DNA from: a virus
DNA: 36,698 bases
Strand: one strand, 5' to 3'
IMG/VR virus record: IMGVR_UViG_3300009128_000063
Location: 1-36,698 of that record
This document shows, piece by piece, positions 7,975-23,611 of the stretch. Numbering within the stretch: the stretch's first letter is position 1; every line of letters begins with the position of its first letter. The notes beneath the pieces are model-generated. The model had not been told where the DNA came from and did not search any database. It saw nothing but the letters and a program-made list of their open reading frames with translations. The translations under genes were made by a program, and so were the position numbers.

Positions 7975-9222
7975 ATGTCTTATAAAAAATTCAATTCAAA
8001 TGACGTTGTTGTTAATACTATGAGAACTCACCCAAAGAGCGAGTTCCTCATTTATGATGGAAGAGTGTATTACAACGATACTCCCCAGATGTCGGGGTCT
8101 TTTACTGACAACACTCTGGGCGTGCCTCCCGGTCACATTAGCCTTTACGAGAACAACATTGATCGAGTGACTGGTTCCAACAATTTAAGCTTTCCGTTTA
8201 TACTCAAAAGTAGCGCCGGAGCAAACTTAAAAACAGTTTCTAGTACTGCCTATTCAAATGGTTTTGTTTATGGAGATCAGATGTCCGATACATATCCGAT
8301 GTCAGCCTCTATAACACGAGAGTTGATGACTAGTCCTGCCACTAGGGCAACTGGAATTGACAAAGACACTGGAACGTCATTCGATACTTCTCCGTTATAT
8401 CGCCACTTCTATTCTTTAAAAAATAGATTAGATTTTTATGGCATAAGAAGTCAACACTATAAAGTGTCATCTTCATACGGAGACAAAAACTCTCAGACTT
8501 TAAATTTAATTTCTATTCCTTCAATTTTTTATGGCTCTAAAATAAAGAAAGGCACTGTATCAATGAAGTGGTACTTCACAGGTTCGCTCATAGGAGAGCT
8601 GGAAGATGTGAAACAGAATGGAGAGCTGATACAAGTGGGACCAACCGGCAGTGCAGGCAGCGGCTCAGTTGCTGGCGTCATTCTCTATGACGAGGGATTT
8701 GTTATTTTAACGGGCTCTTGGGACTTAAATGATGAAACTATACCGCTTATTGCAAACGAGACAACTGCCGTCAAGCCATCATGGTTATATTATGGTGCCG
8801 GCGCTCTTGATGGAGTTACTCAAGCTTCTACCGCTGCTGCCGGAAACACATCAGATTATATGTCAGCATCGTTTAACTTTTCTTTTTCTGGTCACTCAGA
8901 GACTCAAGTTTTGACAATGTTTGCTCATGCTCCTCGTGGAGAAGTAAATTATTCTAATAATCCAACATACGCCAAATACGGCCAAAAACAAGTAGCCAAT
9001 TCATCATCCCAAGTGTACGAGGAAAATCCAAACAGAGAAATAGTAAATATGGCCAGTTCCAGTTGGTCTGAGCATTCTGCGTCTTTTGAACGTCAAGTGT
9101 ATATTTCTCGTGTTGGCATCTACGATGAGAATAAAAACTTAATAGGAGTAGCCACGCTCTCTAATCCTGTCTTGAAAAAAGAAGATCAGGATCTAACCTT
9201 TAAACTTCGGATTGATATATGA
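7975..9222 (+). CDS. Virion structural protein, paralogue of preceding gene
   Basis: A 415-residue protein. An AGGAA site precedes the ATG at 7975. The C-terminal half parallels the preceding gene: IKKGTVSMKW, a VILTGSW strand, NYSNNPTYAKYG, and a terminal IGVATLSNPVLKKEDQDL block ending in LRIDI where the neighbour ends in VRLDY. The N-terminal 150 residues differ and begin MSYKKFNSNDVVVNT, a start I associate with marine T4-like phage virion proteins. Its last codons overlap the start of the resolvase gene (ATGA), so a late structural gene runs directly into a DNA-processing gene without a terminator. Confidence 0.78.
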   Translation: MSYKKFNSNDVVVNTMRTHPKSEFLIYDGRVYYNDTPQMSGSFTDNTLGVPPGHISLYENNIDRVTGSNNLSFPFILKSSAGANLKTVSSTAYSNGFVYGDQMSDTYPMSASITRELMTSPATRATGIDKDTGTSFDTSPLYRHFYSLKNRLDFYGIRSQHYKVSSSYGDKNSQTLNLISIPSIFYGSKIKKGTVSMKWYFTGSLIGELEDVKQNGELIQVGPTGSAGSGSVAGVILYDEGFVILTGSWDLNDETIPLIANETTAVKPSWLYYGAGALDGVTQASTAAAGNTSDYMSASFNFSFSGHSETQVLTMFAHAPRGEVNYSNNPTYAKYGQKQVANSSSQVYEENPNREIVNMASSSWSEHSASFERQVYISRVGIYDENKNLIGVATLSNPVLKKEDQDLTFKLRIDI

Positions 9223-9761
9223 TTCTTGGAATTGACGTGAGCACATCTATAACTGGCTTCGCCGTAATCGATAACGATGGAAAGATAGTTAAATCTTGTG
9301 TCTGTGATTTGCGAAAACATAAAGGCTTTTTCAAAAAGTCTGCAATCATAAATGAATTCATAATGGATCTTTGCGATGAATATTGTCTTGACTGGGAGAA
9401 CAAAGGCATCAATCACATTTACATTGAGGAACCATTTACCTTTTTCAAATCTGGCGGCTCTTCTGCAAAAACAATGGCTGCCCTCCAACGCTTCAATGGA
9501 GTAGTGTCTTGGATGATATATCGGTGTTTTGATATAGAGCCACAGTATGTCGGCGCTACCCAAGCCCGCAAACTTGTTGGCATCAAGGTGCCCCGTGGAG
9601 AGAAAGCAAAAAAGGTTGTTATGGAACATTTACTTTCTACAGACAAACAATTTACAATAGAGAGAACTATTCATGGCAATCCAAAGCCTGAAGCCTTTGA
9701 TAGAGCTGATGCCCTAGTGATTGCTCGTGCTGGACTTGAGTTGGAGAATAAAAAGAGTTGA
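9219..9761 (+). CDS. RuvC-like Holliday junction resolvase (RNase H fold)
   Basis: A 180-residue protein of the RuvC/RNase H-fold resolvase type, which cuts four-way DNA junctions with two metal ions. The expected acidic residues are all visible: Asp6 in GIDVSTSITGFAVID, Glu70/Glu71 in IYIEEP, and Asp161 and Asp164 in FDRADALVIARAG near the C-terminus. Length is close to that of RuvC. The start overlaps the previous stop as ATGA. It opens a block with primase and Mre11-Rad50, so a role in resolving replication or recombination intermediates, or debranching DNA before packaging as T4 endonuclease VII does, is likely. T4 itself uses an unrelated enzyme for that job. Confidence 0.88.
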   Translation: MILGIDVSTSITGFAVIDNDGKIVKSCVCDLRKHKGFFKKSAIINEFIMDLCDEYCLDWENKGINHIYIEEPFTFFKSGGSSAKTMAALQRFNGVVSWMIYRCFDIEPQYVGATQARKLVGIKVPRGEKAKKVVMEHLLSTDKQFTIERTIHGNPKPEAFDRADALVIARAGLELENKKS

Positions 9762-9786
9762 CTTTCGCTGCTTCTTGAGTTATAAT
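9758..9786 (+). promoter_or_regulatory. Sigma-70-type promoter for primase
   Basis: TTGACT (9758-9763), a 17-base spacer, then a perfect TATAAT (9781-9786). The -35 box overlaps the stop codon of the resolvase gene. The expected start point, about seven bases past the -10 box, falls at or beside the primase ATG at 9793, so the message would have almost no leader. Confidence 0.8.
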
Positions 9787-9792
9787 GAAAAC

Positions 9793-10734
9793 ATGAGCAC
9801 AAAAAGCAAACTCAAAATCGTCTCTGCTGTACTAGGCAACCACATTCAAACAAGTAGCGATGAATATTATTTCGCTTGCCCTGTTTGTGATCACCACAAG
9901 CTTAAGTTTGCAGTCAACATCAAGAAAGGCTTATATCATTGTTGGGCTTGTGACTATCGAGGTAGGAAGCTACGCCGCCTCATTCGCAGATTTGGAACAT
10001 TTACACAATTACAGAAATGGGATCAACAGCACGGCAGGACAGATCTTGACCAATTTATCGATCTGTTCTCGGAGTGCCCAAAGGAAGAAGAAAAAGAAAA
10101 GCTCGAACTTCCACCAGAATTTAGAACACTGACAGACAATATGCCTCCTCGAACTGCTGGCCGCGCCCTCCGATATCTACAAGAGAGGGGGTTAACAAAA
10201 GAAGATATTCTTCGCTGGAAGATAGGATTTTGCTTTTCGGGCGAGTATCGTAATCGAATTATTGTCCCATCTTTTGACACTGACGGTGACGTAAATTATT
10301 TTATTGCCCGTTCGAATAGCGGCGACTCGTACAAATATAAGAACCCACGAGCCTCGAAGAATATCATATTTAATGAATTGTATGTCAACTGGAACGAAGA
10401 TTTAATTTTAGTCGAAGGTGTGTTCGACGCAATCGTTGCAGGCAATGCAGTTCCTATTCTCGGCAGCACGCTTCGAACAGACTCTCAGTTATTGCGAAAG
10501 ATAGTTGAAAATGACACTCCTGTTTACATTGCTCTTGATCCCGACGCAAGGAATAAAGAGAATAGAATAATAAAAATGTTGTTAGAATACGACATCGAAT
10601 TGTATAAGATAGATGTTTCGGGATTCGAGGATGTTGGCTCGATGACAAAAGAAGATTTCCAGAAGCGTAAACAAACCGCTAAAATGATAGACAGAGAAAG
10701 TTATCTTCTACTTGATCTATTGTCAGCAATTTAA
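9793..10734 (+). CDS. DnaG-type DNA primase (gp61-like)
   Basis: A 313-residue primase that would make RNA primers for lagging-strand synthesis with a phage helicase. A zinc ribbon sits near the N-terminus (Cys29, Cys32, Cys50, Cys53 in CPVC...CWAC). A basic catalytic segment RNRIIVPSF lies near residue 153, followed by a TOPRIM core with Glu208 in LILVEGVFDA and Asp249/Asp251 in ALDPDA. The size is close to T4 gp61 (342 aa). I choose the ATG at 9793 because it immediately precedes the zinc domain; the frame is open back to 9721 but that part overlaps the resolvase. No ribosome-binding site precedes 9793, and the sigma-70 promoter would start transcription almost on this ATG. Confidence 0.9.
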   Translation: MSTKSKLKIVSAVLGNHIQTSSDEYYFACPVCDHHKLKFAVNIKKGLYHCWACDYRGRKLRRLIRRFGTFTQLQKWDQQHGRTDLDQFIDLFSECPKEEEKEKLELPPEFRTLTDNMPPRTAGRALRYLQERGLTKEDILRWKIGFCFSGEYRNRIIVPSFDTDGDVNYFIARSNSGDSYKYKNPRASKNIIFNELYVNWNEDLILVEGVFDAIVAGNAVPILGSTLRTDSQLLRKIVENDTPVYIALDPDARNKENRIIKMLLEYDIELYKIDVSGFEDVGSMTKEDFQKRKQTAKMIDRESYLLLDLLSAI

Positions 10735-10801: not shown

Positions 10802-13800
10802 ATGAGTTATAAAATAGCACACATTAGCGACACACACATCAAGAACCTTAAATACCACCAAGAGTATCGAGAAGTTTTTCAACAGATCTATGAGCGACTT
10901 AGAAAGGAAAAACCAGACTATATTTTACACTTGGGAGATCTAGCACACACAAAGACATCTTTGTCGCCAGAATACTTTGAACTTGCTAGTGACTTCTTGA
11001 AGAACTTGGCAGACATTGCTCCCACCCACTTGATTTGCGGAAATCACGATGGAAATTTAAAAAACAGTAACAGACAAGATGCCATAACGCCAATAGCTCT
11101 AGCCCTTGAACACCCCAACCTCTTTCTTCACAAAAATGCAGGCGAGGTCATTTTAACCAATGACTTGTGTTTAAATGTTTTGTCTGTCTTTGACCGCGAC
11201 AATTGGGTAACACCATCAGATCTATCGAAGATCAACATAGCTCTTTATCATGGCTCAATTGTTGGAAGTCATACAGACAAAGGCTGGATGCTAGAGTCAG
11301 CGGATGATCCAATTACGATCTTTGATGGGCATGATTTTGCTTTCTTGGGTGATATCCATCGCTGTCAGAGCGTAGATGAAGCTGGTCGCTATTGGTATTG
11401 TGGCAGCACAATACAACAAAATCATGGCGAAACTGATGATAAGGGTTTGTTAATTTGGGACATTGACTCAAAGAATGATTGGGACATTACGCCAATTGCT
11501 TTCAAGAACCCAAAACCATTCCTCACAGTTGAGTTGACCCCAAAGGGGCGAATCCCCAAAAACACAGTGTTTGTAAAGGGTTGTCGTCTACGTCTTGTGA
11601 GTAATAACAATTTACCTCTTGATGTGATGCGTAGAGCTATAGATATAGCACGTCACAAGTTTGAACCGGAATCGCTTTCGTTTCTTAATCGTGCTCAAGG
11701 GTCTCGTGGTTCGGTAAATGAAATAATCGATGATGTGGCAGACAACCTGCGAGACATCACAGTCCAAGAAGAACTAATCGATGAATATTTAAAAGATTAT
11801 CAAGTCGATTCCAATACTCTTGAGAGAGTTTATGAGCTCAATAGAAAATATAAACAAGCTGCAGAGTCAGAAGAAGACATCTCTCGCAATGTCAAATGGA
11901 AGTTAAAGACCTTTGAATGGTCAAATCTTTTCAACTATGGCGAAGGAAACAAAATAAATTTTGATAGCCTTGGTGGCATCGTAGGAATATTGGGAAAGAA
12001 CTTCTCAGGAAAATCATCTATTATTGATGGCATCTTATATACAATGTTTAATACAACTTCTAAGAACGAAAGGAAGAACTTAAACATCATCAATCAAAAC
12101 AAAGATGATTGTATGGGCAAGTTAGTTATTGAAATAGACAACAAGACATACACGATTGTCCGTCAATCAGAAAAGTATGTCAAGAAACTAAAAGGCGAAG
12201 AAACTACAGAAGCAAAGACTATAGTCGACTTTGAAGTGTACGATCAAGTCACCAGAGAGATAACTTCTTTAAACGGCACCACACGCAATCAGACCGACGC
12301 AATTATTAGAAAGGTCTTCGGAGCCGTCGAAGATTTTTTGGTCTCTTCTATGGCCAGCCAGCACGGCGCATTGACATTTATCGAAGAGGGTTCAACCCGC
12401 CGTAAAGAGATTATAGCCAAATTCTTGGATTTGGAAATATTTGAGAGAAAATATAAGTTGGCTAAAGAAGATTCTGTGACAGCCAAAGCTCTCTTAAAGA
12501 AGCACTCCGAACGAAACTACGGGGAAGAAATAGGCTTAGCTAAAGAAGAGCTTACAAGTCACAAGAATAAAGTCAACTTGAATAAAAAGGTGTGTACTAC
12601 GCTTAAAAGTAAAGTATCGACATTGACAGAAAGCTTGATAACAATACAATCACAGATTGAGTCTGCCCCTAATGACTATATTGATATCGTCACTTTGAGA
12701 TCAGAGAAGGAAGAAAAGGAAAGAGAAATTCAAACACTGGTTGATGATATTGCTCTCAAGACTGAGATAGCCAACGAGAATGATGAAAAGTTAGTTAAGA
12801 TACAAGAATTTCTGTCCACGTTCAATATAGCCCAACTCGAAGAAGACAACAGACGTTCTGAAGATATCGCAAATGACATTGACAAATTCAATAGTGCCCT
12901 TGAAACTATTGGTCGAAAGTCAAAACTATTAGATGGAATTCCTTGTTCTGATAGTTTTCCTACTTGCAAATTCATCAAAGATGCAAGCATCCATGTCTTA
13001 AACAAAGGGTCAATAGAAAAAGAACTTTCTGATGCAGAGAGCACTCTTGAGGAACTTAATCCAAAACAAGTAACCAAGAGATTATCGCAAGTTAAAAGCA
13101 TTCAAGAAAAAGAGGCATCCTTGAACACCCAGAACTCTAGTTTGCGTCTTGACTGTTCGCGAAGCAAAAATACGAAGATAAGCCTTGAACAAAATCTGAA
13201 AGAAGTAGATTCAAAAATTGAAGTTTATGAACTAAACAAAGAAGCTATTGAGGATTTAGAATCTTTATTGAAGAGTCAAGCTGAATTGGCAGCAGAAATA
13301 GAAGCTGGAAACATCAAGATAGAGAAATGTGATGATGAAACTTTAGAACTTGTGAAGAGCGTCGGCTCTTGCGAACAAAAGATAGAAAACCTCAAAGGGC
13401 TACAGAAAGAAAAAGATGAACTGTCAGACAGCTATACTGCCTATGATCTTTTCTTAAAATGCATGCACCCTAATGGAATAGCATACGACATCATAAAAAA
13501 GAGAGTACCGACATTAAACCAAGAGATAGCTAAGATATTGGCAAATATTGTTGAGTTTGAAGTTTCTTTTGAAAGCTCTGGCAACAAGTTGGATATTTTT
13601 ATCAAGCATCCAAAATATGATGCTCGTCCGCTTGAAATGGGCTCTGGCGCAGAAAAGTCTATAGCCGCAATAGCTATTCGCCTAGCACTATTGAGCGTAT
13701 CTTCATTGCCGGTCAGCAACTTAATGGTTCTTGATGAGCCCGCTACTTCCCTAGATGAAGACAATATGGAAGGCTTTATTCGCATCTTAGAACTAATTAA

Positions 13801-13912
13801 GATGTATTTCGAGCATGTGCTTTTAATTAGTCATCTCGATACTCTCAAAGACTGTGTTGATAAACAGATTGTAATAGATACGATAAAAGGCTTTGCCAAA
13901 GTAAACGAATAA
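10802..13912 (+). CDS. Fused Mre11-Rad50 (gp47-gp46/SbcD-SbcC) nuclease-ATPase
   Basis: One 1036-residue chain joins two proteins that T4 and E. coli make separately. Residues 1-330 are an Mre11/SbcD phosphoesterase with metal motifs D10-T-H12, GDLAH (45-49), GNHD (80-83), YHG (150) and LGDIH (182-186); in the last, Asp stands where many homologues have the first His of GHxH. From about residue 365 a Rad50/SbcC ATPase begins: Walker A GKNFSGKS (398-405), long coiled-coil arms, a hook region with Cys715 and Cys722 in PCSDSFPTC, a signature loop MGSGAEKS (946-953), and Walker B VLDEP with Asp978 and Glu979. The complex resects DNA ends for recombination-dependent replication. It has its own sigma-70 promoter and a GGAG site. 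Confidence 0.92.
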   Translation: MSYKIAHISDTHIKNLKYHQEYREVFQQIYERLRKEKPDYILHLGDLAHTKTSLSPEYFELASDFLKNLADIAPTHLICGNHDGNLKNSNRQDAITPIALALEHPNLFLHKNAGEVILTNDLCLNVLSVFDRDNWVTPSDLSKINIALYHGSIVGSHTDKGWMLESADDPITIFDGHDFAFLGDIHRCQSVDEAGRYWYCGSTIQQNHGETDDKGLLIWDIDSKNDWDITPIAFKNPKPFLTVELTPKGRIPKNTVFVKGCRLRLVSNNNLPLDVMRRAIDIARHKFEPESLSFLNRAQGSRGSVNEIIDDVADNLRDITVQEELIDEYLKDYQVDSNTLERVYELNRKYKQAAESEEDISRNVKWKLKTFEWSNLFNYGEGNKINFDSLGGIVGILGKNFSGKSSIIDGILYTMFNTTSKNERKNLNIINQNKDDCMGKLVIEIDNKTYTIVRQSEKYVKKLKGEETTEAKTIVDFEVYDQVTREITSLNGTTRNQTDAIIRKVFGAVEDFLVSSMASQHGALTFIEEGSTRRKEIIAKFLDLEIFERKYKLAKEDSVTAKALLKKHSERNYGEEIGLAKEELTSHKNKVNLNKKVCTTLKSKVSTLTESLITIQSQIESAPNDYIDIVTLRSEKEEKEREIQTLVDDIALKTEIANENDEKLVKIQEFLSTFNIAQLEEDNRRSEDIANDIDKFNSALETIGRKSKLLDGIPCSDSFPTCKFIKDASIHVLNKGSIEKELSDAESTLEELNPKQVTKRLSQVKSIQEKEASLNTQNSSLRLDCSRSKNTKISLEQNLKEVDSKIEVYELNKEAIEDLESLLKSQAELAAEIEAGNIKIEKCDDETLELVKSVGSCEQKIENLKGLQKEKDELSDSYTAYDLFLKCMHPNGIAYDIIKKRVPTLNQEIAKILANIVEFEVSFESSGNKLDIFIKHPKYDARPLEMGSGAEKSIAAIAIRLALLSVSSLPVSNLMVLDEPATSLDEDNMEGFIRILELIKMYFEHVLLISHLDTLKDCVDKQIVIDTIKGFAKVNE

Positions 13913-15057
13913 TGTCAAACAAAGATAATAAAAATGAATTTGATTTTCTGCCACAAGCAGAACCTACACCAGCATTCCAGCAAGAAAAGGATCACTATCA
14001 CGAAGCAGTTGATGCCGAGGATTTTGGAATGGTTGAAGACTTTGGTCTTCAGATGGAGTTTGCAGATGAAGATCTCCTCCCAGATAACACAGCCCCATCT
14101 TCATTGAATGTGGGCTTTGTTGGCGTTGGCGGCGGCGGTAACAAAATGGTAAACTCATTCATTGAACTTGGTTTTAATAAAACACTCCTTGTCAATACCA
14201 CTGGAAAAGACATCCCGAAGAATACCGCAGAAGAACATGTTGTTCTTATACCAGATAGTGATGGCATCGGCAAAAACGTTGTGTTTGGCAAAGAAGTACT
14301 GTCACAAAACGGCGCAGTCGTCGAAGACGCTCTTAGAATTAAGTTCGGGAAGGTTGATTGGCTTTTTGTTTTTGCAGGCGGTGGTGGCGGAACAGGCTCG
14401 TCTGTGGCCGCACTTCAACCTGTGTTCGAACGTTATCTGAAGACTGTTCAAGCAAGCGGCAAAGTTATCTATGTCGTGTCTTGGCCAACAGCCCAAGAGA
14501 ATCTTAATCCGACTATTGCACGAAACGCATTATCACTTTTAAATGATGTGACTCCATATCCTCATATTGTTGTCGACAACGAAAGACAAACGAGGCTACT
14601 AAGAGGTCGCATTGGCTTGCTTGGGATGTACCCAACAGCAAACACCACTTTCGCGAAAGCGATGGCTCAAATACTAAAACTCTCCACTGAAGATTCACCG
14701 ATCCAAAGTTTTGATTCCAAAGATTTGGAAACTTGTTTGAGCAACGAGGGTAGGGCATTTATTGGCTCTACGATGATTAAAGATCCTAATACAGCGAAAC
14801 TTGGATCGGTGATTCTTCACAATTGTCAGAACCGCTCGGCCTGTCCCCCACCGCGAGGCAAGGCCGCCGCTGGCTCTCTCATATTAGTTGTGTCGGAAGA
14901 GATGGTAGCAGACCCTAGAATAAGTAAGAACATCGAGTCTGCTATTGGATACGTTGGAGGTCGTTGTGAAACGCTCTTCTCTGGCATCTACGTAAGAAAG
15001 AATGTGCCAGGCTTGATAGCTATATTGACCATGAATGGTCTAGAAAAAGGAAATTAA
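13912..15057 (+). CDS. FtsZ/tubulin-family GTPase encoded by phage
   Basis: A 381-residue protein with the whole FtsZ/tubulin motif set in order: T1 GVGGGGNKMV (71-80); T3-like VNTTGKD (94-100); the tubulin signature AGGGGGTGSS (155-164); T5 VVSWPT (188-193); T6 VVDNERQ (220-226, Asn223); and a T7 synergy loop SFDSKD (266-271) keeping both catalytic aspartates (268 and 271) while Ser replaces the usual Asn. Residues 320-375 match the FtsZ C-terminal subdomain. The motifs predict a GTP-binding, polymer-forming, GTP-hydrolysing protein. There is an extra acidic N-terminal segment of about 64 residues, and the chain ends straight after the core, lacking the FtsZ linker and partner-binding tail. 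It is coupled to the nuclease gene (TAATG). Possible roles are a phage cytoskeleton or interference with host division. Confidence 0.88.
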   Translation: MSNKDNKNEFDFLPQAEPTPAFQQEKDHYHEAVDAEDFGMVEDFGLQMEFADEDLLPDNTAPSSLNVGFVGVGGGGNKMVNSFIELGFNKTLLVNTTGKDIPKNTAEEHVVLIPDSDGIGKNVVFGKEVLSQNGAVVEDALRIKFGKVDWLFVFAGGGGGTGSSVAALQPVFERYLKTVQASGKVIYVVSWPTAQENLNPTIARNALSLLNDVTPYPHIVVDNERQTRLLRGRIGLLGMYPTANTTFAKAMAQILKLSTEDSPIQSFDSKDLETCLSNEGRAFIGSTMIKDPNTAKLGSVILHNCQNRSACPPPRGKAAAGSLILVVSEEMVADPRISKNIESAIGYVGGRCETLFSGIYVRKNVPGLIAILTMNGLEKGN

Positions 15058-15418: not shown

Positions 15419-15610
15419 ATGGCAAAAGCAATTTTAGACAAATGGGTGGAGAAATTCACCTCACGAAAGCTACTCGTATGGATGACAGCGACCGCTTTAA
15501 TGTTCACAGGTAGTCTGGAAAGCAGCGACTATGTTATCCTGAGTGCAATATACTTAGGTACTCAAGGAGTGATAGACGCGATAGTTCGATTGAGAGGTGG
15601 CAGTGTTTAA
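15419..15610 (+). CDS. Small two-segment membrane protein, holin-like
   Basis: A 63-residue protein with AGGAG seven bases before the ATG. It has a charged start ending in KFTSRK, a hydrophobic segment at about residues 18-33, a short polar turn (ESSD), a second hydrophobic segment around 37-56 (VILSAIYLGTQGVIDAIV), and a basic RLRG end. Size and layout resemble small phage holins or holin-like proteins with a TSRK...GxQGVxDA pattern. Two membrane or coiled-coil proteins follow and overlap it, as in lysis cassettes, but no endolysin is visible in the window. Holin function is inferred, not shown. Confidence 0.7.
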   Translation: MAKAILDKWVEKFTSRKLLVWMTATALMFTGSLESSDYVILSAIYLGTQGVIDAIVRLRGGSV

Positions 15611-15989
15611 ATCAACAGAGATGTTGTTGTTAGCAAAGCAGAATTGGAAAGAGATCACAATCATTGCTCTTTTGCTTTTAGCAATGGGCAAGATGCGATA
15701 TGATTATAGCCAATTAGAAAGTGCATATGAGGCATCACTGGAATCAATGGAAGAGCAGATAAGAGGACTTCAGCACATACATGATGAAGAATTGGCTGCA
15801 CGAGACAAGGCACTAGAATCTTATCGTAAATCATTAGAACTGTTAGAGGAGTCGTACCTAGAGAAACAAAGCGAACTTGAAGATCAGATGAGGTGGAAAA
15901 AAAAGATCTATATTAAAGACTTCACCAAGGACAAAAACAGCATGGCAGATGCAATCATAGACACATACGGTTTTGAATATGTTCCTTAA
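15603..15989 (+). CDS. Membrane-anchored coiled-coil protein, inner-spanin-like
   Basis: A 128-residue protein. I prefer the GTG at 15603, placed five bases after GAGAGG; a GTG at 15597 in the same frame lies inside that site. It overlaps the end of the upstream small membrane protein. One N-terminal hydrophobic helix (about 17-29, ITIIALLLLAMG) is followed by a long charged heptad-like region (35-100), then a short basic C-terminal part. This N-in, C-out topology with a periplasmic coiled coil is that of Rz-type inner spanins. No sequence family is recognised, so the call rests on topology and neighbours. Confidence 0.65.
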   Translation: MFKSTEMLLLAKQNWKEITIIALLLLAMGKMRYDYSQLESAYEASLESMEEQIRGLQHIHDEELAARDKALESYRKSLELLEESYLEKQSELEDQMRWKKKIYIKDFTKDKNSMADAIIDTYGFEYVP

Positions 15990-16395
15990 ACTGCTTTTTT
16001 TATTATCCTTCTCAACACAAGCTGCCACTGGAAAGTTTACAATAATTTCTGAAAACGAACAGGCTCCATTTGAAGGAGCATTGTTCGATATAGAGGCTAC
16101 AGCCACCCTTATCACAGCAAAGCATGAGATCGAATCTAAATGCGACTTGGCTATGGAATACGAACTAGACAAACAGTCAACAGAGTTTCAACTTGAAAAG
16201 GCTAATCTACAAGCTCACCTGATGTCGACCCAGCGAGAACACAACTTACTGACCGAACAAAAAGATAAAGAGATAATGCAACTACGAGAATCGCTAAAGA
16301 AACATTCGCCACGCAATAAGTGGCTTTGGTTTTTTGGCGGCATTGTGACAGGTGGTTCAGTTGCATACTATACCTACGGAGCTATTAATGAGTGA
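15979..16395 (+). CDS. Signal-peptide protein with C-terminal membrane helix
   Basis: A 138-residue protein starting at the ATG at 15979 and overlapping the upstream gene by 11 bases. Residues 1-15 (MFLKLLFLLSFSTQA) read as a signal peptide with a plausible cleavage after Ala15. The centre (about 45-105) is charged and probably coiled coil. Residues about 112-132 (WLWFFGGIVTGGSVAYYTY) are a membrane helix with a GxxxG-like core. There is no lipobox Cys, so it is not a classical outer spanin. Its place next to holin- and spanin-like genes suggests an envelope or lysis role. No family recognised. Confidence 0.65.
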   Translation: MFLKLLFLLSFSTQAATGKFTIISENEQAPFEGALFDIEATATLITAKHEIESKCDLAMEYELDKQSTEFQLEKANLQAHLMSTQREHNLLTEQKDKEIMQLRESLKKHSPRNKWLWFFGGIVTGGSVAYYTYGAINE

Positions 16396-16768
16396 TGATC
16401 TAAATAGGCTTGCCGCAATAGAAAAAGCTATTTCTGAGAAATATGGTGACGAGACTATCCAAAACCCTAAAGCAAATTGGGACGAAGAAAAAGAAAAAGA
16501 ATACCTCAAACAGATGTCAGAATTATACCAAAAGAGCCAGAAAGTGGAAGAGTATAAAGAAAAAATAGACATTAATGGAATAAAGATATCAAAAAAACTA
16601 TTTAAGAGAGAACCTTTGCGAAGTTGCCCAATGTGCAATTCTTTTCCAAGGAAATCTACTGATGATGTATATTTGTTAAAATACGATTGTTGTTTTAAAT
16701 GTTATGTTCAATATGTTGATGGAAGGGAAGAACGCTGGTTAAAAGGATGGAGACCCAACAATGGCTAA
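16388..16768 (+). CDS. Small zinc-ribbon protein conserved in T4-like phages
   Basis: A 126-residue protein. GGAG lies six bases before the ATG at 16388, which overlaps the previous stop. The N-terminal 60 residues are charged and helical. The C-terminal part carries a treble-clef or ribbon-like cysteine set: Cys80/Cys83 (SCPMC) and Cys101/102/105 (CCFKC), followed by YVDGREERWLKGWRP. That ending is one I associate with small uncharacterised proteins of marine T4-like phages. Metal binding is likely; the function is unknown. It runs into the next gene by overlap. Confidence 0.72.
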   Translation: MSDDLNRLAAIEKAISEKYGDETIQNPKANWDEEKEKEYLKQMSELYQKSQKVEEYKEKIDINGIKISKKLFKREPLRSCPMCNSFPRKSTDDVYLLKYDCCFKCYVQYVDGREERWLKGWRPNNG

Positions 16769-17327
16769 AAAGAAAGAAGCACCCACTGTAACAGAAGTCA
16801 TTCAAGGCTTATCGCAGGCAGCTGCCAACGCACATGATGGTGCGCTAAATGAAGATGGAGAGCAACGCAAGATAGGCTTGCGCAGAGAAGAAGGCAACCC
16901 CCTTCTAGATAAGAGAACAATGGATGGCTTCAATGTTCGGTTCTCTGGAAATCAAATGATACTCTCATATCAATCAGAGATTAAATTAAGAGAGGTTCAT
17001 AACAAGGGCTTCGAGGGTGAAGTTGAACAAACCATGTCCGACATCGTTTCTTATTTAAAGAAAGAATGTCGAAAGATAACAGGAAAAACTGCTTCTTTGA
17101 AATTGGAAGGAGAAACAGACGTCAGGGTGGAAAGTATTTCACGAATACGCACTTGGGTCTGTGCAACACAAACTTATATCATTGAGGGCTCTTCTGCTGA
17201 AGCGCTTGCTCAACCTTCAAAAGATAGATTAGAGCCAAGCTGGAAAGCATTTGTAGAACAGGGCGGCTGGCAAGGTAAGCGCCCTAAAAACGATACTCGT
17301 AAAAAGGGCTCAGAGGTAGAAAAATGA
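16761..17327 (+). CDS. Hypothetical protein, conserved-looking (188 aa)
   Basis: A 188-residue protein starting inside the end of the zinc-ribbon gene. The start is lysine-rich (MAKKKEAPT), the centre has alternating strands and helices (FNVRFSGNQMILSYQSEIKL), and a WKAFVEQGGW segment precedes a basic C-terminal tail. No signal peptide, membrane helix or catalytic motif is seen. It ends as ATGA into the following small gene, so these three small genes form one coupled group. Function unknown. Confidence 0.7.
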   Translation: MAKKKEAPTVTEVIQGLSQAAANAHDGALNEDGEQRKIGLRREEGNPLLDKRTMDGFNVRFSGNQMILSYQSEIKLREVHNKGFEGEVEQTMSDIVSYLKKECRKITGKTASLKLEGETDVRVESISRIRTWVCATQTYIIEGSSAEALAQPSKDRLEPSWKAFVEQGGWQGKRPKNDTRKKGSEVEK

Positions 17328-17512
17328 AAACAACAAAATCACAATTAAAACAGATCATAAAAGAAGAGATCTTAGAGGCTCTCACAATTATGAATGATCC
17401 TCATAGTGATCCAGAGCCAAAATTATTTGGAAAGATGGACGCGGGCCTTGCCCTCCCAGACGAACGACGCATCGAGAGTCATTTTCAAGATGATGTTTCC
17501 ACCAATGACTGA
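17324..17512 (+). CDS. Small protein with TKxxxKxxIxEE N-terminus
   Basis: A 62-residue protein starting in an ATGA overlap. Its N-terminus (MKTTKSQLKQIIKEEI) shares the TK-x3-K-x2-I-x-EE pattern with the 117-residue protein at 15061. I associate similar starts with many unrelated proteins of marine phages, where the segment could act as a sorting or binding tag. The rest is short and polar. The frame stops at TGA (17510-17512) but continues open for 25 more codons to TAG at 17590, see the separate entry. Function unknown. Confidence 0.65.
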   Translation: MKTTKSQLKQIIKEEILEALTIMNDPHSDPEPKLFGKMDAGLALPDERRIESHFQDDVSTND

Positions 17513-17590
17513 TTTGGCGAAGAACATGGACAGTTGGGCAAACGCAAGTTCGCAGACAGGATTCGAGATGATGCCAAAATATATAAATAG
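17513..17590 (+). other. In-frame continuation after TGA; possible readthrough or nonsense change
   Basis: Immediately after the TGA of the 62-residue gene the same frame stays open for 25 codons before TAG (17588-17590). The predicted segment starts FGEEHGQLGKRK and ends DDAKIYK, and looks protein-like (charged, helical). An open run of this length is not rare by chance, so the case rests mainly on composition. It could be readthrough, a recent nonsense change or a sequencing error. Confidence 0.35.
17582..17589 (+). promoter_or_regulatory. TATAAATA, matches T4 late-promoter core
   Basis: An exact TATAAATA lies 20 bases before the ATG at 17602. In T4 this is the late -10 element. The implied start point would leave only about seven bases of leader, and the bases also form the last codons of a possible readthrough frame, so the match may be accidental. 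Confidence 0.3.
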
Positions 17591-17601
17591 GGAATTAACA
17601 A

Positions 17602-18003
17602 ATGTCAGAATTTAAATTATATTCATCGGGTTTACAAAATGTAGGCTCATATCAGGTTGCAGGTGTGCCGTATATAACTGGCTCTAATACTCTTGGAGCC
17701 AATGGGGAAGATTGCATCTCTTTTCCAAATGTTACTAAAACAGTGACTGTTATTAATCATACTTCTAATGCGATACGAATTCACTTTAATTCGTCTAGTG
17801 CAGGGCCAATACACTCTGGGTTTCATTATGTTGAATTAGATAGCGACGAAGACTCATATACATTCAATATAAAGTGCAAAGAGATTTATATTTCTGCTCC
17901 TTCGGGTAACTCTGGAGATGCAGAATACCGAGTTGTCGCAGAGCTGACTCATATTCATACTGGTAGAATGTATGACCTAACTGGCTCTGGCTTAACTGAT
18001 TAA
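17602..18003 (+). CDS. Small virion surface/decoration-like protein
   Basis: A 133-residue protein preceded by AGGGAA. The start MSEFKLYSSGLQNVGSYQV and the all-beta, Ser/Gly/Ile-rich body (alternating short strands such as KTVTVINHTSNAIRIHF) are typical of compact beta-sandwich virion proteins. I associate similar sequences with marine T4-like phages. It directly precedes two fibre-like genes, so a decoration or fibre-associated role is likely. No membrane segment or catalytic motif is present. Exact function unknown. Confidence 0.7.
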   Translation: MSEFKLYSSGLQNVGSYQVAGVPYITGSNTLGANGEDCISFPNVTKTVTVINHTSNAIRIHFNSSSAGPIHSGFHYVELDSDEDSYTFNIKCKEIYISAPSGNSGDAEYRVVAELTHIHTGRMYDLTGSGLTD

Positions 18004-18014
18004 GGAGATTAGAT

Positions 18015-19205
18015 ATGGGATTTGGACAAGGCTTTAGGCCCGGTAAGGGTGACACAGCAGGAGATTCGTCGATTGATGGCGATCTATCGGTCACTGGCGA
18101 TACGACACTAGGTAACGCATCTTCTGATGCCACAACAGCACGAGGTAGCTTAGATATCTCTGATGCCGATGGAGCGACTTATGGACTTAAGTTGGCTAGT
18201 ACATTGGTGACTGCAACTGCCGCAGAACTTAACATTCTTGATGGCGTGACTGCAACTGCCGCAGAACTTAATATTCTTGATGGTGTGACTTCAACTGCCG
18301 CAGAACTTAATATTCTTGATGGCGTGACTGCAACTGCCGCAGAGCTTAACTATGTTGATGTCACCACCGCTGGTACTGCTCAGGCTTCTAAAGCTGTTGT
18401 GTTGGACGCTAACAAAAACATTTCTACATTAGGAGCAGTTGGCTGTGGTGCAATCACATCTACTGGCAACATCTCTGGCTCTGGAGATATTTCTTTTGGT
18501 GGCGATTCCTCACTTAAAGTGGGCCCTTATGCGCTTAGCCAAGCTGATATTGGCTTTTTAGACGGTATCACCGCTGGTACTGCTGCAGCTTCTAAAGCTG
18601 TTGTGTTGGACGCTAGCAGCGACGTCACCGGCCTGAGATCTGTCACTGGTTCTGGAAATGCAAAGTTTGATAATTTCCAAGCTTCAACATCTGTTTCGAC
18701 ACCAAGTCTTGTTCTTGGCGGAACTGCTGTATCTTCAACTGCCACAGAGCTTAACTACCTTGGTGGTTTTACTGAAGCCGTTATCGACAAGGGCAGCGAC
18801 TCTTTGGCTTTCTGGGACTCTAATGTGGGGGCAATACGTCGTGAAAGTGTCTCTGATTTCCTTACAGCTGTCGCAGGTGCTGGTATTTCTGTTTCAGGCG
18901 ACCAGCTTGTGGCTGACGGCGGAGGCGCTCCAGCCGCAGTAGTCCATGGCGACACCCTTACTGAAGGTTTCAACTACTTAACTGGCGCTCTTGCTGGTAA
19001 TGCAGAAGTTACACTTCCTGCATCTCCAGCTGCTGGCGATAAAGTACACTTTAAAGCCGCTGGTGGTCTTAGTGATTCAGTTTATGTAGATGTTATGACT
19101 TCTGGTTCACACACAATCGATGGCCAAGATTCCGTTCGACTTGAATCACCTCATGGTGCTATTTCGTTCTTCTATGCTGAAACCAACCTTTGGAAGATCT
19201 GGTAA
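18015..19205 (+). CDS. Fibre-like virion protein with TAAELNxLDGVT repeats
   Basis: A 396-residue protein, GGAG eight bases before the ATG. Residues about 65-116 hold four 13-residue repeats of the form VTATAAELNILDG, a hallmark of phage tail fibre and virion adhesin proteins, plus two later single copies of related segments. A longer unit, TAGTAxASKAVVLDA, occurs twice. The last 80 residues (AGNAEVTLPASPAAGDKV to NLWKIW) form a small beta domain shared with the next fibre-like gene. The protein is very rich in Gly, Ala, Ser and Thr. It is probably a trimeric fibre or surface protein involved in host contact. A strong terminator follows. Confidence 0.8.
   Translation: MGFGQGFRPGKGDTAGDSSIDGDLSVTGDTTLGNASSDATTARGSLDISDADGATYGLKLASTLVTATAAELNILDGVTATAAELNILDGVTSTAAELNILDGVTATAAELNYVDVTTAGTAQASKAVVLDANKNISTLGAVGCGAITSTGNISGSGDISFGGDSSLKVGPYALSQADIGFLDGITAGTAAASKAVVLDASSDVTGLRSVTGSGNAKFDNFQASTSVSTPSLVLGGTAVSSTATELNYLGGFTEAVIDKGSDSLAFWDSNVGAIRRESVSDFLTAVAGAGISVSGDQLVADGGGAPAAVVHGDTLTEGFNYLTGALAGNAEVTLPASPAAGDKVHFKAAGGLSDSVYVDVMTSGSHTIDGQDSVRLESPHGAISFFYAETNLWKIW
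18207..18362 (+). repeat. 39-bp tandem repeat, 4 copies
   Basis: Four 39-bp units begin at 18207, 18246, 18285 and 18324. The first three differ at only a few bases; the fourth diverges at its 3' end. Each encodes one VTATAAELNILDG-type repeat of the fibre-like protein. Confidence 0.92.
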
Positions 19206-19247
19206 TCCAGATTTTATCTTGATTGGCTTGATTGCTTAAACTTTAGG

Positions 19248-19281
19248 TGTCCCCTCCTTGTGAGGGGGCATCTTTTTCTTT
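19248..19281 (+). terminator. Rho-independent terminator
   Basis: A nine-pair stem (TGTCCCCTC with GAGGGGGCA, one G-U pair) closes a five-base loop and is followed by TCTTTTTCTTT. It lies 42 bases after the fibre-like gene and closes that unit. Confidence 0.9.
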
Positions 19282-19327
19282 GCGCCAACGAAACCAACAA
19301 TCTTCGCAGACAAAACAAAATAATAAT

Positions 19328-19334
19328 CTATTTA
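19328..19334 (+). promoter_or_regulatory. Candidate late-promoter motif CTATTTA
   Basis: TCTATTTA lies just after the terminator and 26 bases before the ATG at 19354, with AGAGGT as ribosome-binding site. It is one base from the recurring ACTATTTA octamer. The opposite strand reads TATAAATAG here. Confidence 0.45.
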
Positions 19335-19353
19335 TAGAGAAGAGGTAATAATA

Positions 19354-20688
19354 ATGGCTTATAATGTTCTTAAAGGAAATATACAATTCTCTGGCGACGA
19401 CAACGGCACACTAGAGTGCATGGTCGATAATCACTCCACGCAAGTGATAAACGGACACAAAGAGTTCTCTAATGCAGTATCAGCCAGCGTATTCTGGGAT
19501 ACAACAAATAATAAACAAGTAGCCCCACCAGCAATCACATCTATCACGAGTGACGGCAACAATAGAGTATTGACATCGGACGGCGATGGGACTGCAACTG
19601 CTGAATCTTCAATGACTTACGATGGCACAACTCTGACTGCAACAAATGTAAGCGTATCATACCTTACGGGAGCAGCAGGAGGATTGACCAATATACCAGT
19701 TGACCAGTTTGTGTCAACTATTCCAGCATCGTCTATCGAATACGACCTCGGACTAACATTATCAGGTAATGCTCTAGTTGTTGAGGTGGATAACGGAATT
19801 TCAGTTGGCGAAGACGGCTTGACAATCAACTTGGCATCAAACGAAGGCTTGACACTTTCGGGAAGTTATTTAACACTAGACCCAACAAACATCACTGATG
19901 TAACAAGTGGCGGACAAAACCTTGCTGACAGTGATGTGTTAATCGTAGAGGATGTATCTCATGGCCTAAGAAAGACAACACTCACGAACTTTTATTCGAA
20001 CTACATCTCATCTAAGATTTCCAGCCCAGCTATTACGACATATACCAACTCCACCAACAATAGGCTATTAACTTCTGTAGATGGAACCAGCGTAAATGGT
20101 GAAGCCAATCTTACATTTGACGGTGCACTGCTGACTGTCACAGGAGAGACAGCGACCACAGTTTTGACAGCAACAAGTTTAATATCAGGCTCAGCTGCAG
20201 TTTCTGGATCTTCGTTGTGGGCAGATGGACTGCCCGTCGGCCCAGCAGTAGGACTAACGGGAGAAATTCAACTTAAAGGTAGCAATGGTCTGTTGTGGGC
20301 AGAAGGTGACTTTAGTTATGATATCGGCACTTCCATTTTATCTGTACCAACCATCAAGACCACCACTTCTCTCAATATGTCAGGTTCAGTTGTAAACAGA
20401 ATTCGAACAGTTACTTCAAATCATACAGTTGCTGACACAGATTATACCATACTTGCAGATACTAATTCTGGCAATGTAACTATTTCACTCCCGCCTGCGA
20501 TTGGGATTCATCTTGGTCGGACAATACAGATAAAGAAAATACACTCCAACAATACGCTGTATATAGCCCCATCTGGTTTAGATAATTTAGATGGCGTAAA
20601 CGTGACAGAAAGCATTAGTAATGACAATGCCCTACGAGCTATCCAATCCGATGGCATCAACTGGTGGTACACAGCTAGATACAATTAA
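19354..20688 (+). CDS. Fibre-like virion protein (444 aa)
   Basis: A 444-residue Ser/Thr/Asn/Gly-rich beta protein, with AGAGGT nine bases upstream of the ATG. Paired units around LTSDGDGTATAESSMTYDGTTL and LTSVDGTSVNGEANLTFDGALL resemble the head-domain repeats of phage fibres. The last 80 residues (SGNVTISLPPAIGIHLGRTI to WWYTARYN) align in pattern with the end of the preceding fibre-like protein and look like a terminal receptor-binding or capping domain. It has its own terminator and promoter motif upstream, so it is a separate transcription unit. Tail fibre or virion spike is the likely class. Confidence 0.75.
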   Translation: MAYNVLKGNIQFSGDDNGTLECMVDNHSTQVINGHKEFSNAVSASVFWDTTNNKQVAPPAITSITSDGNNRVLTSDGDGTATAESSMTYDGTTLTATNVSVSYLTGAAGGLTNIPVDQFVSTIPASSIEYDLGLTLSGNALVVEVDNGISVGEDGLTINLASNEGLTLSGSYLTLDPTNITDVTSGGQNLADSDVLIVEDVSHGLRKTTLTNFYSNYISSKISSPAITTYTNSTNNRLLTSVDGTSVNGEANLTFDGALLTVTGETATTVLTATSLISGSAAVSGSSLWADGLPVGPAVGLTGEIQLKGSNGLLWAEGDFSYDIGTSILSVPTIKTTTSLNMSGSVVNRIRTVTSNHTVADTDYTILADTNSGNVTISLPPAIGIHLGRTIQIKKIHSNNTLYIAPSGLDNLDGVNVTESISNDNALRAIQSDGINWWYTARYN

Positions 20689-20716
20689 CAATAATAGTCG
20701 TTTTGTAAGCAAACAC

Positions 20717-20744
20717 ACTATTTATCTGTGAAATACTATTTTTA
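20717..20744 (+). promoter_or_regulatory. Doubled late-promoter-like octamer before scaffold gene
   Basis: An exact ACTATTTA at 20717-20724 is followed 18 bases later by ACTATTTTTA at 20735-20744, just before GGAG and the ATG at 20758. The second copy abuts the ribosome-binding site. Confidence 0.5.
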
Positions 20745-20757
20745 GGAGTTACCTTAG

Positions 20758-21801
20758 ATGTCCAAATTATTAAAAGAGGCTATCGTAGATGCCGAAGCTT
20801 TAAGAGAGGCAGCCTTGATGCATGCAGAAAGAGAAGTCGTTAACAAATATTCGAACGAAGTCCGTGAATCTCTAGAAACAATGTTGGAACAAGATGATAT
20901 GTCTCTGCCATTGGATGACATCACCGATTTGTCTGAAGAGACCATTGATGAAGAAGTGGCAGAAATACCACTGGCAGCAACAGACAATTTCTCAGAAATG
21001 GATGGCCAAAACTTGTCTAACTTTCCATCTGACGGCGACACGACCGAAATTACGCTTGATCTTGGCTCTCTTAGAGAATCAGTTGAAGCCCTAACTTCAG
21101 AGATGGCAGAAGTTGCGGAAGAAATAGAGATCTCTGAAGATGACATAGTAGAAGCAATGTCAACAGAAGAAGAGTTAGAAGAAAATGAAGAAACAAATGA
21201 ATCAATTGACGAAACTATTGAGATCGAAGAAGATGTCAATGAAGAACTTGTTGATTCTATCGCCGAAAGGCTTTCTGTGGAAATGGGTGCAGACTTAAGT
21301 GGCTGGGTTGGACGCAGAGAAGAAGAAATTCGCTACGAAATGGAGAAAGAGATGGCTCACCGCCGAGACTCCGAAGTAGAAAAAGAAATGAAAGACTTGA
21401 AGAAGGCACAAGAAGAGTTAGTTTTCGAAAATAAACAACTCAATGACGCCAATCAAAAGTACAAGACGGCACTTTCAGAAGCGCAAGAAACTTTACAAAC
21501 AGTAAATATTTCAAACGCCCGCCTATTGTACACCAACCGTATTTTGAGAAATTCCTCCTTAAATGAGCGACAAAAAAATAGAATTGTCGAAACAATTTCA
21601 AAAGCGGACTCAGTGGCAGAAGCCAAAACGATCTATGAAACACTTAAAAACGCAGTGCCGGATACACAAATACGTAAACCGAAATCACTGAGTGAAGCAA
21701 TCAGTCGTCCAACTTCAGTCATTCGTGCTACTCGTCATGAGTCAGCACGACCAACAGATACATTCTCTGATAGAATGCGTATGTTGGCCGGCATAAAATA
21801 G
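20758..21801 (+). CDS. Prohead core scaffolding protein (gp22-like)
   Basis: A 347-residue, highly acidic, helical protein. GGAG lies nine bases before the ATG. The first 60 residues are helical, about 60-175 are Glu/Asp-rich, and 185-260 are strongly coiled coil. The C-terminal part contains NISNARLLYTNRILRNSSLN followed by ERQKNRIVE, a block I associate with gp22 scaffolds of T4-like phages. It would form the core on which the capsid assembles and then be degraded by a prohead protease (not seen in this window). It lies 25 bases before the major capsid gene, the usual 22-23 order. Confidence 0.87.
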   Translation: MSKLLKEAIVDAEALREAALMHAEREVVNKYSNEVRESLETMLEQDDMSLPLDDITDLSEETIDEEVAEIPLAATDNFSEMDGQNLSNFPSDGDTTEITLDLGSLRESVEALTSEMAEVAEEIEISEDDIVEAMSTEEELEENEETNESIDETIEIEEDVNEELVDSIAERLSVEMGADLSGWVGRREEEIRYEMEKEMAHRRDSEVEKEMKDLKKAQEELVFENKQLNDANQKYKTALSEAQETLQTVNISNARLLYTNRILRNSSLNERQKNRIVETISKADSVAEAKTIYETLKNAVPDTQIRKPKSLSEAISRPTSVIRATRHESARPTDTFSDRMRMLAGIK

Positions 21802-21826: not shown

Positions 21827-23611
21827 ATGTCAGGAATAATTGAAAGGTTGACCGAAGGTATGGTCAACAGAGATATGCGTGTCGAAGGTCACGCTTTATT
21901 AAACAAATGGGAAAAAACAGGTCTATTAGAGGGCATTACGAGTGATCGTAAACGTCAATCTATGGCTCGTCTCCTAGAAAACCAAGCTAAAGAGCTTCTC
22001 CGTGAGAGTTCCTCAATGGCTGGTGGTGATGTAGAAGGCTTTGCTGCCGTCGCATTCCCAATCGTTCGTCGTGTATTCGCCGGACTTATCGCTAATGATC
22101 TTGTTAGTGTTCAACCAATGAGTCTACCAAGTGGACTTATCTTCTTCCTCGACTTCACAGTTAGTCAAGAAGCAGGTGGTTATACGAGCGCTGAGAGTCG
22201 TTTAGGCTATCAACAAACAAGCTCAATCTATGGTGGTGATAAAGTAGGTTCTGGTATGGTGAGTGGAATTGATCTTTCAAGGAACGTAGGTACCCAGAAC
22301 GGTGGCCCATATTACTTGAACAATGGTTATACTTCAGCAACTGGTTCTTCTACTGCTGACGGTATCACATTGACGCCATTGGTGATCAACTATGGTACTT
22401 TTGGCGATGATGCTGGCATAACCGCTGAAGTGCGCTTTGACGCAGACATGGTTAGCGGTTCTACTGAGGTTGCTCGTGTATCTGTATTAGTATCAGGCTT
22501 GGATCAAGTTGATACAAATGGTCCACAATCTTTTAGTGTCTCTAGTTCTAGCGGACTTGGAGTAGTAGAAAAAAGCGATGGTACTGTTGCTGCTCGTCTA
22601 GTTCGCCGCCAAACTCGTTATAGTGGCTCTGCTACTACTCGTCTTGAGACTGTTTGGATTGGAACTGGTGTCGATGGTGCATACTCAGGTACTGCTGAAG
22701 CTATGAGCATCCAAATCGCCGCTGCTCTTACTTCATCAGCAAACACAGTGTCTTGGGCTCAAACAGATGATTTAACTGCTGCAAGTGCTGTAGGTGCAAT
22801 CGTAGGTCAGGCTGAATGGGGACTTGAAGGCGAAGCCAACATCCCAGAGATCGACATCAAGGTTGACTCAATCGCTATCACAGCGAAGACCAAGAAGTTG
22901 AAAGCGAAATGGACACCGGAACTCGGTCAAGACCTCAATGCTTACCACAACTTGGACGCAGAGGTTGAACTTACTTCAATCCTTTCAGAGCAGATTGCTC
23001 TTGAGATTGACCGTGAGATTCTAGCTGACCTTGTGAACGGTGCAACTGCAGGCACTTACTATTGGGCACGTAGTCCTGGTCTCTTTGTGAACCGTACTAC
23101 AGGTGCAGAAGTAGGCGCTTCTACAAAAGCTCCAGACTTCACAGGTACTGTATCTGAATGGTATGAGACTCTAGTCGAAACCATCAATGATGTATCTGCA
23201 CAAATCCATCGCAAGACTCTCCGAGGCGGAGCTAACTTCATCGTGGTATCACCTGAAGTGGCAAATATCCTTGAGTTTACTGCTGGATTCCGTGGTTCAG
23301 TCACACATGATGACGAGAAGGGCTCAGTAGGAGCAGTCAAAGTTGGAAGCATTTCTAAGAAGTTCGACGTTATCGTTGATCCTTACTTCTTACGCAATGT
23401 TGTTCTGATTGGTCGCAGAGGTTCTAGTTTCCTAGAATCAGGATATGTATACTCACCATACGTACCTCTCCAGACAACACCGACAATCTTCGGACCAGAG
23501 GATTTCGTACCTCGTAAGGGCGTCATGACAAGATATGCCAAGAAAATGGTACGTCCAGATATGTATGGCCTAGTTGTTATTCGAGGAATGATGGGCGAAA
23601 GCGGCTCCTAA
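21827..23611 (+). CDS. Major capsid protein (gp23-like)
   Basis: A 594-residue HK97-fold capsid protein of the T4 gp23 type (521 aa in T4). Matches include the N-terminal LLNKWEKTGLLEGI and LLENQAKELL region, FPIVRRVFAGLIANDLVSVQ at about 77-96 followed by PM (T4 has VRRAIPNLIAFDICGVQPM), and, at about 353-400, KKLKAKWTPELGQDL then AEVELTSILSEQIALEIDRE, which align closely with T4. The C-terminal region with APYVPL-like YSPYVPL and a TRYAKK segment also fits. A variable beta-rich insertion (about 120-340) makes it longer than T4. Well-placed AAAGGAGT precedes the ATG, and codon use is richer in GC-ending codons than in neighbouring genes, as expected for a very highly expressed gene. Confidence 0.95.
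   Translation: MSGIIERLTEGMVNRDMRVEGHALLNKWEKTGLLEGITSDRKRQSMARLLENQAKELLRESSSMAGGDVEGFAAVAFPIVRRVFAGLIANDLVSVQPMSLPSGLIFFLDFTVSQEAGGYTSAESRLGYQQTSSIYGGDKVGSGMVSGIDLSRNVGTQNGGPYYLNNGYTSATGSSTADGITLTPLVINYGTFGDDAGITAEVRFDADMVSGSTEVARVSVLVSGLDQVDTNGPQSFSVSSSSGLGVVEKSDGTVAARLVRRQTRYSGSATTRLETVWIGTGVDGAYSGTAEAMSIQIAAALTSSANTVSWAQTDDLTAASAVGAIVGQAEWGLEGEANIPEIDIKVDSIAITAKTKKLKAKWTPELGQDLNAYHNLDAEVELTSILSEQIALEIDREILADLVNGATAGTYYWARSPGLFVNRTTGAEVGASTKAPDFTGTVSEWYETLVETINDVSAQIHRKTLRGGANFIVVSPEVANILEFTAGFRGSVTHDDEKGSVGAVKVGSISKKFDVIVDPYFLRNVVLIGRRGSSFLESGYVYSPYVPLQTTPTIFGPEDFVPRKGVMTRYAKKMVRPDMYGLVVIRGMMGESGS

Follow-up and report, generated by a model that had tools for sequence, protein, structure and literature searches.

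What does a tubulin-like protein do in a phage of the T4 type? The question is raised by a 36,698-nucleotide stretch of viral DNA (IMG/VR record IMGVR_UViG_3300009128_000063; hereafter the window), which contains an intact open reading frame, here named TUB, that encodes 381 amino acids from an ATG start and overlaps the stop codon of the upstream SbcCD gene by one base (TAATG). Phage tubulins as such are nothing new; most of what is known of them comes from the nucleus system of phiKZ-type phages, in which they are accessory parts. A third of the known members of that system have no PhuZ (PMC10299810), and when marine jumbo phages were surveyed, the phiKZ-like cluster alone contained tubulin (PMC9123017). 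Two distinct FtsZ/tubulin types have been described in jumbo phages (Iyer et al., 2021; PMC7824862) and PhuZ homologues in huge phages (Al-Shayeb et al., 2020; PMC7162821), while the text of a survey of the tubulin/FtsZ family contains no viral sequences (PMC9871819) and neither tubulin nor FtsZ comes up in three papers on the Far-T4 phages (PMC4360716; PMC7198788; PMC13037479). In the literature searched, which included few subscription papers and no bioRxiv preprints, we did not find the TUB family, its phage lineage, its anatomy or its best-conserved status.

The nucleotide-binding loops claimed in a preliminary description of the locus are all present in TUB (GVGGGGN at residues 71-77, AGGGGGTGSS at 155-164, SWPT at 190-193 and DNERQ at 222-226), as is the T7 loop with both aspartates (SFDSKD, residues 266-271). 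Profile searches matched TUB significantly to the tubulin/FtsZ superfamily, with 39.6 bits for Pfam Tubulin (PF00091; gathering score 33, E = 9e-10) and 61.4 bits for NCBIfam FtsZ (TIGR00065; E = 9e-17), the equivalog cut-off of which is 295.2 bits. Two members of subfamily B, described below, score 23.4 and 19.8 bits against PF00091, under the cut-off. With phmmer, TUB matches solved FtsZ structures at E = 2e-12 and the CetZ structure 3zid at E = 1e-9, the latter over residues 90-374 and thus into the C-terminal subdomain. The G-box GGGTG[ST] and the acidic T7 loop are invariant across 76 homologues, and the two aspartates of the latter, D268 and D271, are found in 76 of 76 aligned sequences, including gp138 of Bacillus phage G. 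The main features of the locus are listed below.

Features of TUB, of its surroundings in the window and of two genes with the same presence pattern (positions in the window unless a locus is named)
Feature	Position	Strand	Basis or remark
TUB, subfamily A tubulin/FtsZ-superfamily GTPase	13912..15057	+	PF00091, TIGR00065, AF2, structural Z
TUB N-terminal extension, residues 1-62	13912..14097	+	Residues 1-49 predicted disordered (AF2)
TUB T1 loop VGVGGGGNK, residues 70-78	14119..14145	+	Glycines invariant across A and B
TUB T4 (G-box) AGGGGGTGSS, residues 155-164	14374..14403	+	Alignment
TUB T6 motif DNER, residues 222-225	14575..14586	+	DNE invariant, phage G gp138 included
TUB T7 synergy loop QSFDSKDL, residues 265-272	14704..14727	+	D268 and D271 catalytic-type
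TUB C-terminal subdomain, residues ~281-377	14752..15042	+	AF2, structural alignment
RuvC-like resolvase	9219-9761	+	PHROG 159; conserved upstream neighbour
DNA primase	9721-10734	+	PHROG 47; conserved upstream neighbour
Fused SbcD-SbcC (T4 gp47/gp46-type) nuclease	10802..13912	+	PHROG 77, 100
Small-gene block downstream of TUB, subfamily A	15419..17327	+	Conserved
Gp23-type major capsid protein	21827..23611	+	PHROG 138
AAA_5 ATPase and UvdE UV endonuclease with TUB presence pattern	L159:7018-8100 and L161:17825-18817		

The ends of the protein are distinctive. The last part of the 62-residue acidic N-terminal extension is conserved in both subfamilies; its motif DFGMVEDFGLQME...DEDLLPDNT is kept in subfamily A and altered to DF.FVEAYDD...DERLLPDNT in subfamily B. 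A loop that contains Cys and Pro and is specific to the family lies at residues 309-317, of which S309 and C311 are invariant. The FtsZ-type C-terminal linker and FtsA/ZipA-binding peptide are not found in TUB, whose last strand is directly followed by the end of the chain, while the FtsZ references in the alignment keep the C-terminal ...[LF]DIPAFLR.

An initial AF2 model built from 45 near-identical sequences was poor (pLDDT 54) and was replaced once subfamily B had been found. The replacement, built from 76 sequences, has a pLDDT of 87.1 and a pTM of 0.82, with a pLDDT above 90 for 293 residues and disorder only at residues 1-49. It contains the tubulin GTPase core together with H7, the T7 loop and the C-terminal subdomain, and it aligns to TubZ, CetZ and FtsZ up to residues 377-381, in agreement with the FtsZ-like C-terminal subdomain described earlier. 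Z scores against these three proteins are 26-32 over ~290-312 residues. Among the matches listed, the best are CetZ2 (Z 32.1, 294 residues) and TubZ (4ei7; Z 32.1, 312 residues), and FtsZ, at Z ~28, ranks below both. In BFVD, PhuZ shares the fold class (E = 4e-11), and two FtsZ-like proteins from uncultured phages have the same fold with 17-18% identity to TUB. With PF00091 above its cut-off, a complete predicted fold and invariant T7 aspartates, the reading of TUB as a complete FtsZ/tubulin-family GTPase is upheld: by homology and fold TUB is a real member of the superfamily and not a chance resemblance.

With tblastn, no homologue of TUB was detected in 50,697 phage records at E ≤ 1e-5, and at E 10 the sole match was gp138 of Bacillus phage G (E 0.1). 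In IMG/VR, at least 160 near relatives of the window protein were confirmed, which make up subfamily A; the best 80 of these are 83-86% identical to it. Subfamily B was found by a PF00091 profile search of long contigs from related phages; its members are 53-56% identical to the window protein, with at least 104 loci confirmed on contigs of up to 293 kb. A scan with A and B sequences together confirmed at least 345 relatives; all these counts are lower bounds from pattern-seeded scans that favour close relatives. In a tree whose references were confined to six proteins of the FtsZ or FtsZ-like kind, one FtsZ-like protein from a plasmid, gp138 of phage G and PhuZ, a branch (95/99) sets the two subfamilies off from FtsZ (94/93) and gp138 (100/99). 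The PhuZ branch, at 6 changes per column, is too long for placement, and trees at the depth of this family are provisional. TUB founds a phage family of its own, divided into subfamilies A and B. Judged by its sequence, it is not a cellular FtsZ, as it falls below the equivalog cut-off, has no C-terminal peptide and occupies a clade of its own. Two scans of genome contigs for a close cellular relative as its origin, which sense close relatives only, gave pattern matches of which none was confirmed, and the search for a plasmid copy yielded a single chance match (E 0.8).

Beside Gp23, RuvC, primase and SbcCD, the window encodes a tail sheath, a tail tube and a baseplate hub. The nearest named relatives of its Gp23 are those of Flavobacterium phage immuto, Microcystis phage Mel-JY01 and Rhodothermus phage RM378 (40-47%), with a huge metagenomic phage also among the nearest, and the carriers of TUB are therefore placed in the Far-T4 group (Roux et al., 2015; PMC4360716). 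Other Far-T4 phages have been tied to Flavobacteriales in the literature, and, judged from that literature, the samples are probably aquatic. By profile search, TUB is absent from RM378, immuto, Mel-JY01 and the huge metagenomic phage, so that, together with the search of phage records above, the earlier remark that such a protein is not standard for T4-type phages holds. The Mel-JY01 gene that follows SbcCD was considered as a hidden homologue and rejected, since it resembles a DNA methyltransferase. The fused SbcD-SbcC reading frame itself also occurs in many Far-T4 relatives, Mel-JY01 included. Two structural-gene features of the window are recorded in passing: the tail sheath (28087-31035) is 982 amino acids long and its first 600 residues match no sheath profile, and an HNH/homing-type endonuclease (23853-25283) directly follows the major capsid gene.

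Within the carriers, TUB is present as a single copy in seven of seven long subfamily-A contigs (114-196 kb), and all 52 carriers of subfamily A form one clade in the SbcCD tree (100; 0.999 in a second tree of 95 rows). At locus L194, terminase and portal come after SbcCD and TUB is missing. A scan anchored on SbcCD and independent of TUB listed 80 loci, 78 of which have no TUB within 6 kb. Several of the SbcCD loci without an adjacent TUB belong to genomes that have subfamily B elsewhere, so absence next to SbcCD is not absence from the genome. No recognisable TUB was found in 20 other long or medium Far-T4-type contigs, which may be incomplete. TUB is therefore patchy across the Far-T4 phages, yet stable inside the carrier clades. 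For one Far-T4 clade it is a core gene, present once and inherited vertically, rather than an odd accessory. Only the AAA_5 ATPase and the UvdE endonuclease share its pattern of presence, in four of four carriers and none of three non-carriers, which is too small a set of genomes to carry much weight.

The conservation of TUB is high by any of the comparisons made, all of which use best-hit pairs of mechanically called open reading frames at a coverage of at least 60% (40% for the 43-protein set). Between two subfamily-A genomes of 196 and 191 kb (G001 and G002), TUB ranks first among 105 shared proteins with 88.5% identity, against a median of 54% and values of 79% for terminase and 78% for portal. 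When an A genome is compared with a B genome, it is second of 50 (57%, median 33%), and for a pair of B genomes it is seventh of 125 (71%, median 44%). Among the 43 proteins common to four carrier genomes it has the highest mean identity, above capsid, terminase and portal. Divergence among near homologues is 0.61 at 4-fold sites, 0.11 in amino acids and 0.05 at second positions, and the difference between the 4-fold and amino acid values indicates strong purifying selection on a real protein. Such constraint fits a self-assembling protein whose surface is used in self-contacts and would not be expected if the protein were used against the host in an arms race.

The gene order of subfamily A is RuvC, primase, SbcCD, TUB, small genes, TerL and portal. 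SbcCD was recovered at 67 of the best 80 subfamily-A loci, always upstream of TUB and on the same strand, and five genes of the downstream small block, which have no Pfam match, are present in 79-80 of them. The placement of TUB in the recombination module of a T4-type phage, as originally described, thus stands for subfamily A and fails for some members of subfamily B, in which TUB lies beside the major capsid gene. In these phages it adjoins gp23 and a head-tail adaptor, along with a gene that weakly matches the gp15 sheath stabiliser of T4; other B phages have PhoH, a PrkA kinase and a GroEL-like protein around it. In the 267-kb B phage at locus L304, the PrkA serine kinase and the GroEL-like protein (105-2084 and 2406-3773) lie upstream of TUB. 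No neighbour of TUB is conserved in both subfamilies. Its gene surroundings are not alike in A and B, nor constant among B phages, and are thus weak as evidence of cargo. The window itself departs from G001 and G002 downstream of the small genes: the terminase-portal-protease block that follows them in those genomes is missing, and ~4.5 kb with a tail-fibre-like gene (17328-21826) separates the small genes from the capsid gene, which reflects either a rearranged genome or an assembly join.

Upstream motifs also differ between the subfamilies. Counts of the exact T4 late promoter TATAAATA are no more than chance-like, and it was discarded. The motif ACTATTTA is strand-biased, with seven occurrences on the plus strand of the window and none on the minus strand, and with 27/0 and 31/2 in two related genomes. 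Its plus-strand sites in the window, among them 5782, 20717, 25289, 28029 and 32867, are for the most part 11-60 nt ahead of a gene, and several of these genes are structural. Against a background of ~10%, the shorter TATTTA shows enrichment in front of B genes (31/57) and none in front of A genes (8/74). ACTATTTA/TATTTA is a possible late promoter of the Far-T4 clade that would serve the B TUB genes, and the A genes may be expressed by read-through from the replication operon.

PhuZ arranges the infected cell for phiKZ-like phages. For TUB, we consider it moderately probable that the protein is a GTP-driven filament protein that positions phage DNA and/or capsids during lytic infection. In the mechanism that we propose, TUB subunits would bind GTP via T1-T6, the T7 loop of one subunit (D268, D271) would complete the active site of the next, and head-to-tail polymerisation would trigger hydrolysis at the subunit interface and turnover. 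The resulting filaments would arrange the infected cell, placing replicating phage DNA and/or capsids in it without a chimallin shell, and the conserved acidic N-terminal tail, in place of a C-terminal tail, would be the likeliest contact for partners. GTPase activity, polymerisation and dynamics are what we infer from homology and fold, while phage DNA and/or capsids as cargo is a guess. The fold, the invariant loops, the single copy and the strong conservation speak for such filaments, as do the gene order of subfamily A, which ties TUB to DNA processing and packaging, and that of some B phages, which ties it to gp23 and the head-tail adaptor; against them, no dedicated and conserved partner or centromere-like element came to light, and the related long contigs without TUB imply that Far-T4 phages can do without it.

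The alternatives can be weighed against the same observations. TUB might instead strike at host division by co-assembling with or poisoning host FtsZ, with the cell staying undivided or large during infection. FtsZ is the nearest cellular profile by sequence (TIGR00065, E = 9e-17; PDB FtsZ, 2e-12), and unrelated small phage proteins do target it, such as Hdi of T5 (PMC10714956) and Kil of lambda (PMC3961180). However, phages usually employ small inhibitors for this purpose, TUB is only ~25% identical to E. coli FtsZ and falls in a separate clade of the tree, and a decoy should diversify with its host, yet TUB is the most conserved shared protein. We consider this role unlikely. Of the three roles offered in the preliminary description, a filament that positions DNA or particles is thus the one favoured, and action on host division finds little support because TUB evolves more slowly than the capsid protein and does not have the FtsZ C-terminal peptide. 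TubZ binds TubR through a C-terminal extension. TUB, which ends after its last strand, has no such extension, has no gene conserved beside it in both A and B and, in subfamily A, sits with primase, SbcCD, TerL and portal, which are lytic functions; it is therefore quite improbable that it is a TubZ-type partition motor for an extrachromosomal phage genome in a pseudolysogenic or carrier state, even though TubZ is a joint-best structural match (4ei7) and performs that task for plasmids and for a phage. Jumbo-phage tubulins have been discussed in relation to pseudolysogeny (Iyer et al., 2021; PMC7824862).

The B copies that lie beside gp23 and a head-tail adaptor, the possible late promoter motif upstream of B genes and the position of A copies upstream of TerL and portal could instead point to a non-motor assembly factor, either a GTPase that acts as a scaffold or a protein associated with the virion, that takes part in head morphogenesis or packaging. 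The catalytic loops for nucleotide-driven polymerisation are nevertheless all intact, and subfamily A is encoded in a replication operon without the late-type motif, which leaves this role about as improbable as partition. To our knowledge, every characterised member of the superfamily that has T6, H7, T7 and the C-terminal subdomain polymerises. These elements are present in TUB and missing in FtsZl1, in the discussion of which it was suggested that some FtsZ-like families may not polymerise (PMC2875224). We thus regard it as highly improbable that TUB is a GTPase switch or enzyme without functional filaments, while noting that its polymerisation is itself something that we infer.

Returning to a positioning filament as the preferred role, a key question is whether it would act within a phage nucleus. 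In phmmer searches with two chimallins, no match was found at E 0.01 in the window, G001, G002, G016 or G018, a comparison of sequences that could miss a diverged shell, and no PhuZ was detected by sequence in the same five. A phiKZ-type nucleus in the TUB carriers is accordingly not indicated by these searches. More tentatively, in a proposal that is a little more apt to fail than to hold, a tubulin cytoskeleton may be the hallmark of one major clade of uncultured Far-T4 phages (~190-290 kb) without detectable chimallin, in which filaments alone would organise replication and capsid assembly as an independently evolved spindle. What gives the proposal its interest is that TUB is the best-conserved shared protein of a T4-type group that includes jumbo-sized members and has no detectable chimallin. 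If this is true, the "phage spindle" would be separable from the "phage nucleus", TUB would serve as a sensitive marker by which uncultured Far-T4 phages can be recognised, and the tubulin/FtsZ tree would gain a deep branch of viral proteins.

Among known systems, gp138 of Bacillus phage G, a "putative FtsZ-like cell division protein", is also phage-encoded and aligns with TUB over 235 residues (23% identity, E = 5e-16), with which it shares the DNE[RK] and FDxxDL motifs. Unlike TUB, it has no N-terminal extension, a different C-terminal part and the T1 loop GEGG, and it belongs to another phage lineage and a separate branch of the tree. A protein 66% identical to gp138 is encoded on a 175-kb uncultured viral contig (L176:4995-6119). 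PhuZ of the Chimalliviridae (phiKZ, 201phi2-1) is, like TUB, a tubulin of large myoviruses with the same fold class, but the two have no usable sequence similarity (hhalign probability 0.4%), and TUB differs in its T4-type rather than phiKZ-type phages, in having no C-terminal tail and in the lack of a detected chimallin. TubZ of Bacillus plasmids and a clostridial phage is a joint-best fold match with 16-19% identity; in contrast to it, TUB has no C-terminal extension and no neighbour conserved between A and B. The other joint-best fold match, archaeal CetZ (~20% identity), is cellular, and TUB is set apart from it by its own N-terminal tail and Cys/Pro loop. Bacterial FtsZ is the best sequence profile match and has the same T-loops and two T7 aspartates, whereas TUB, at ~25% identity, has no linker or C-terminal peptide, lies outside a division cluster and forms its own clade. 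Finally, in FtsZl1 the T6-H7 region is diverged or missing and the C-terminal domain is unrelated (PMC2875224), while TUB has T6, H7, T7 and a C-terminal subdomain of the tubulin type.
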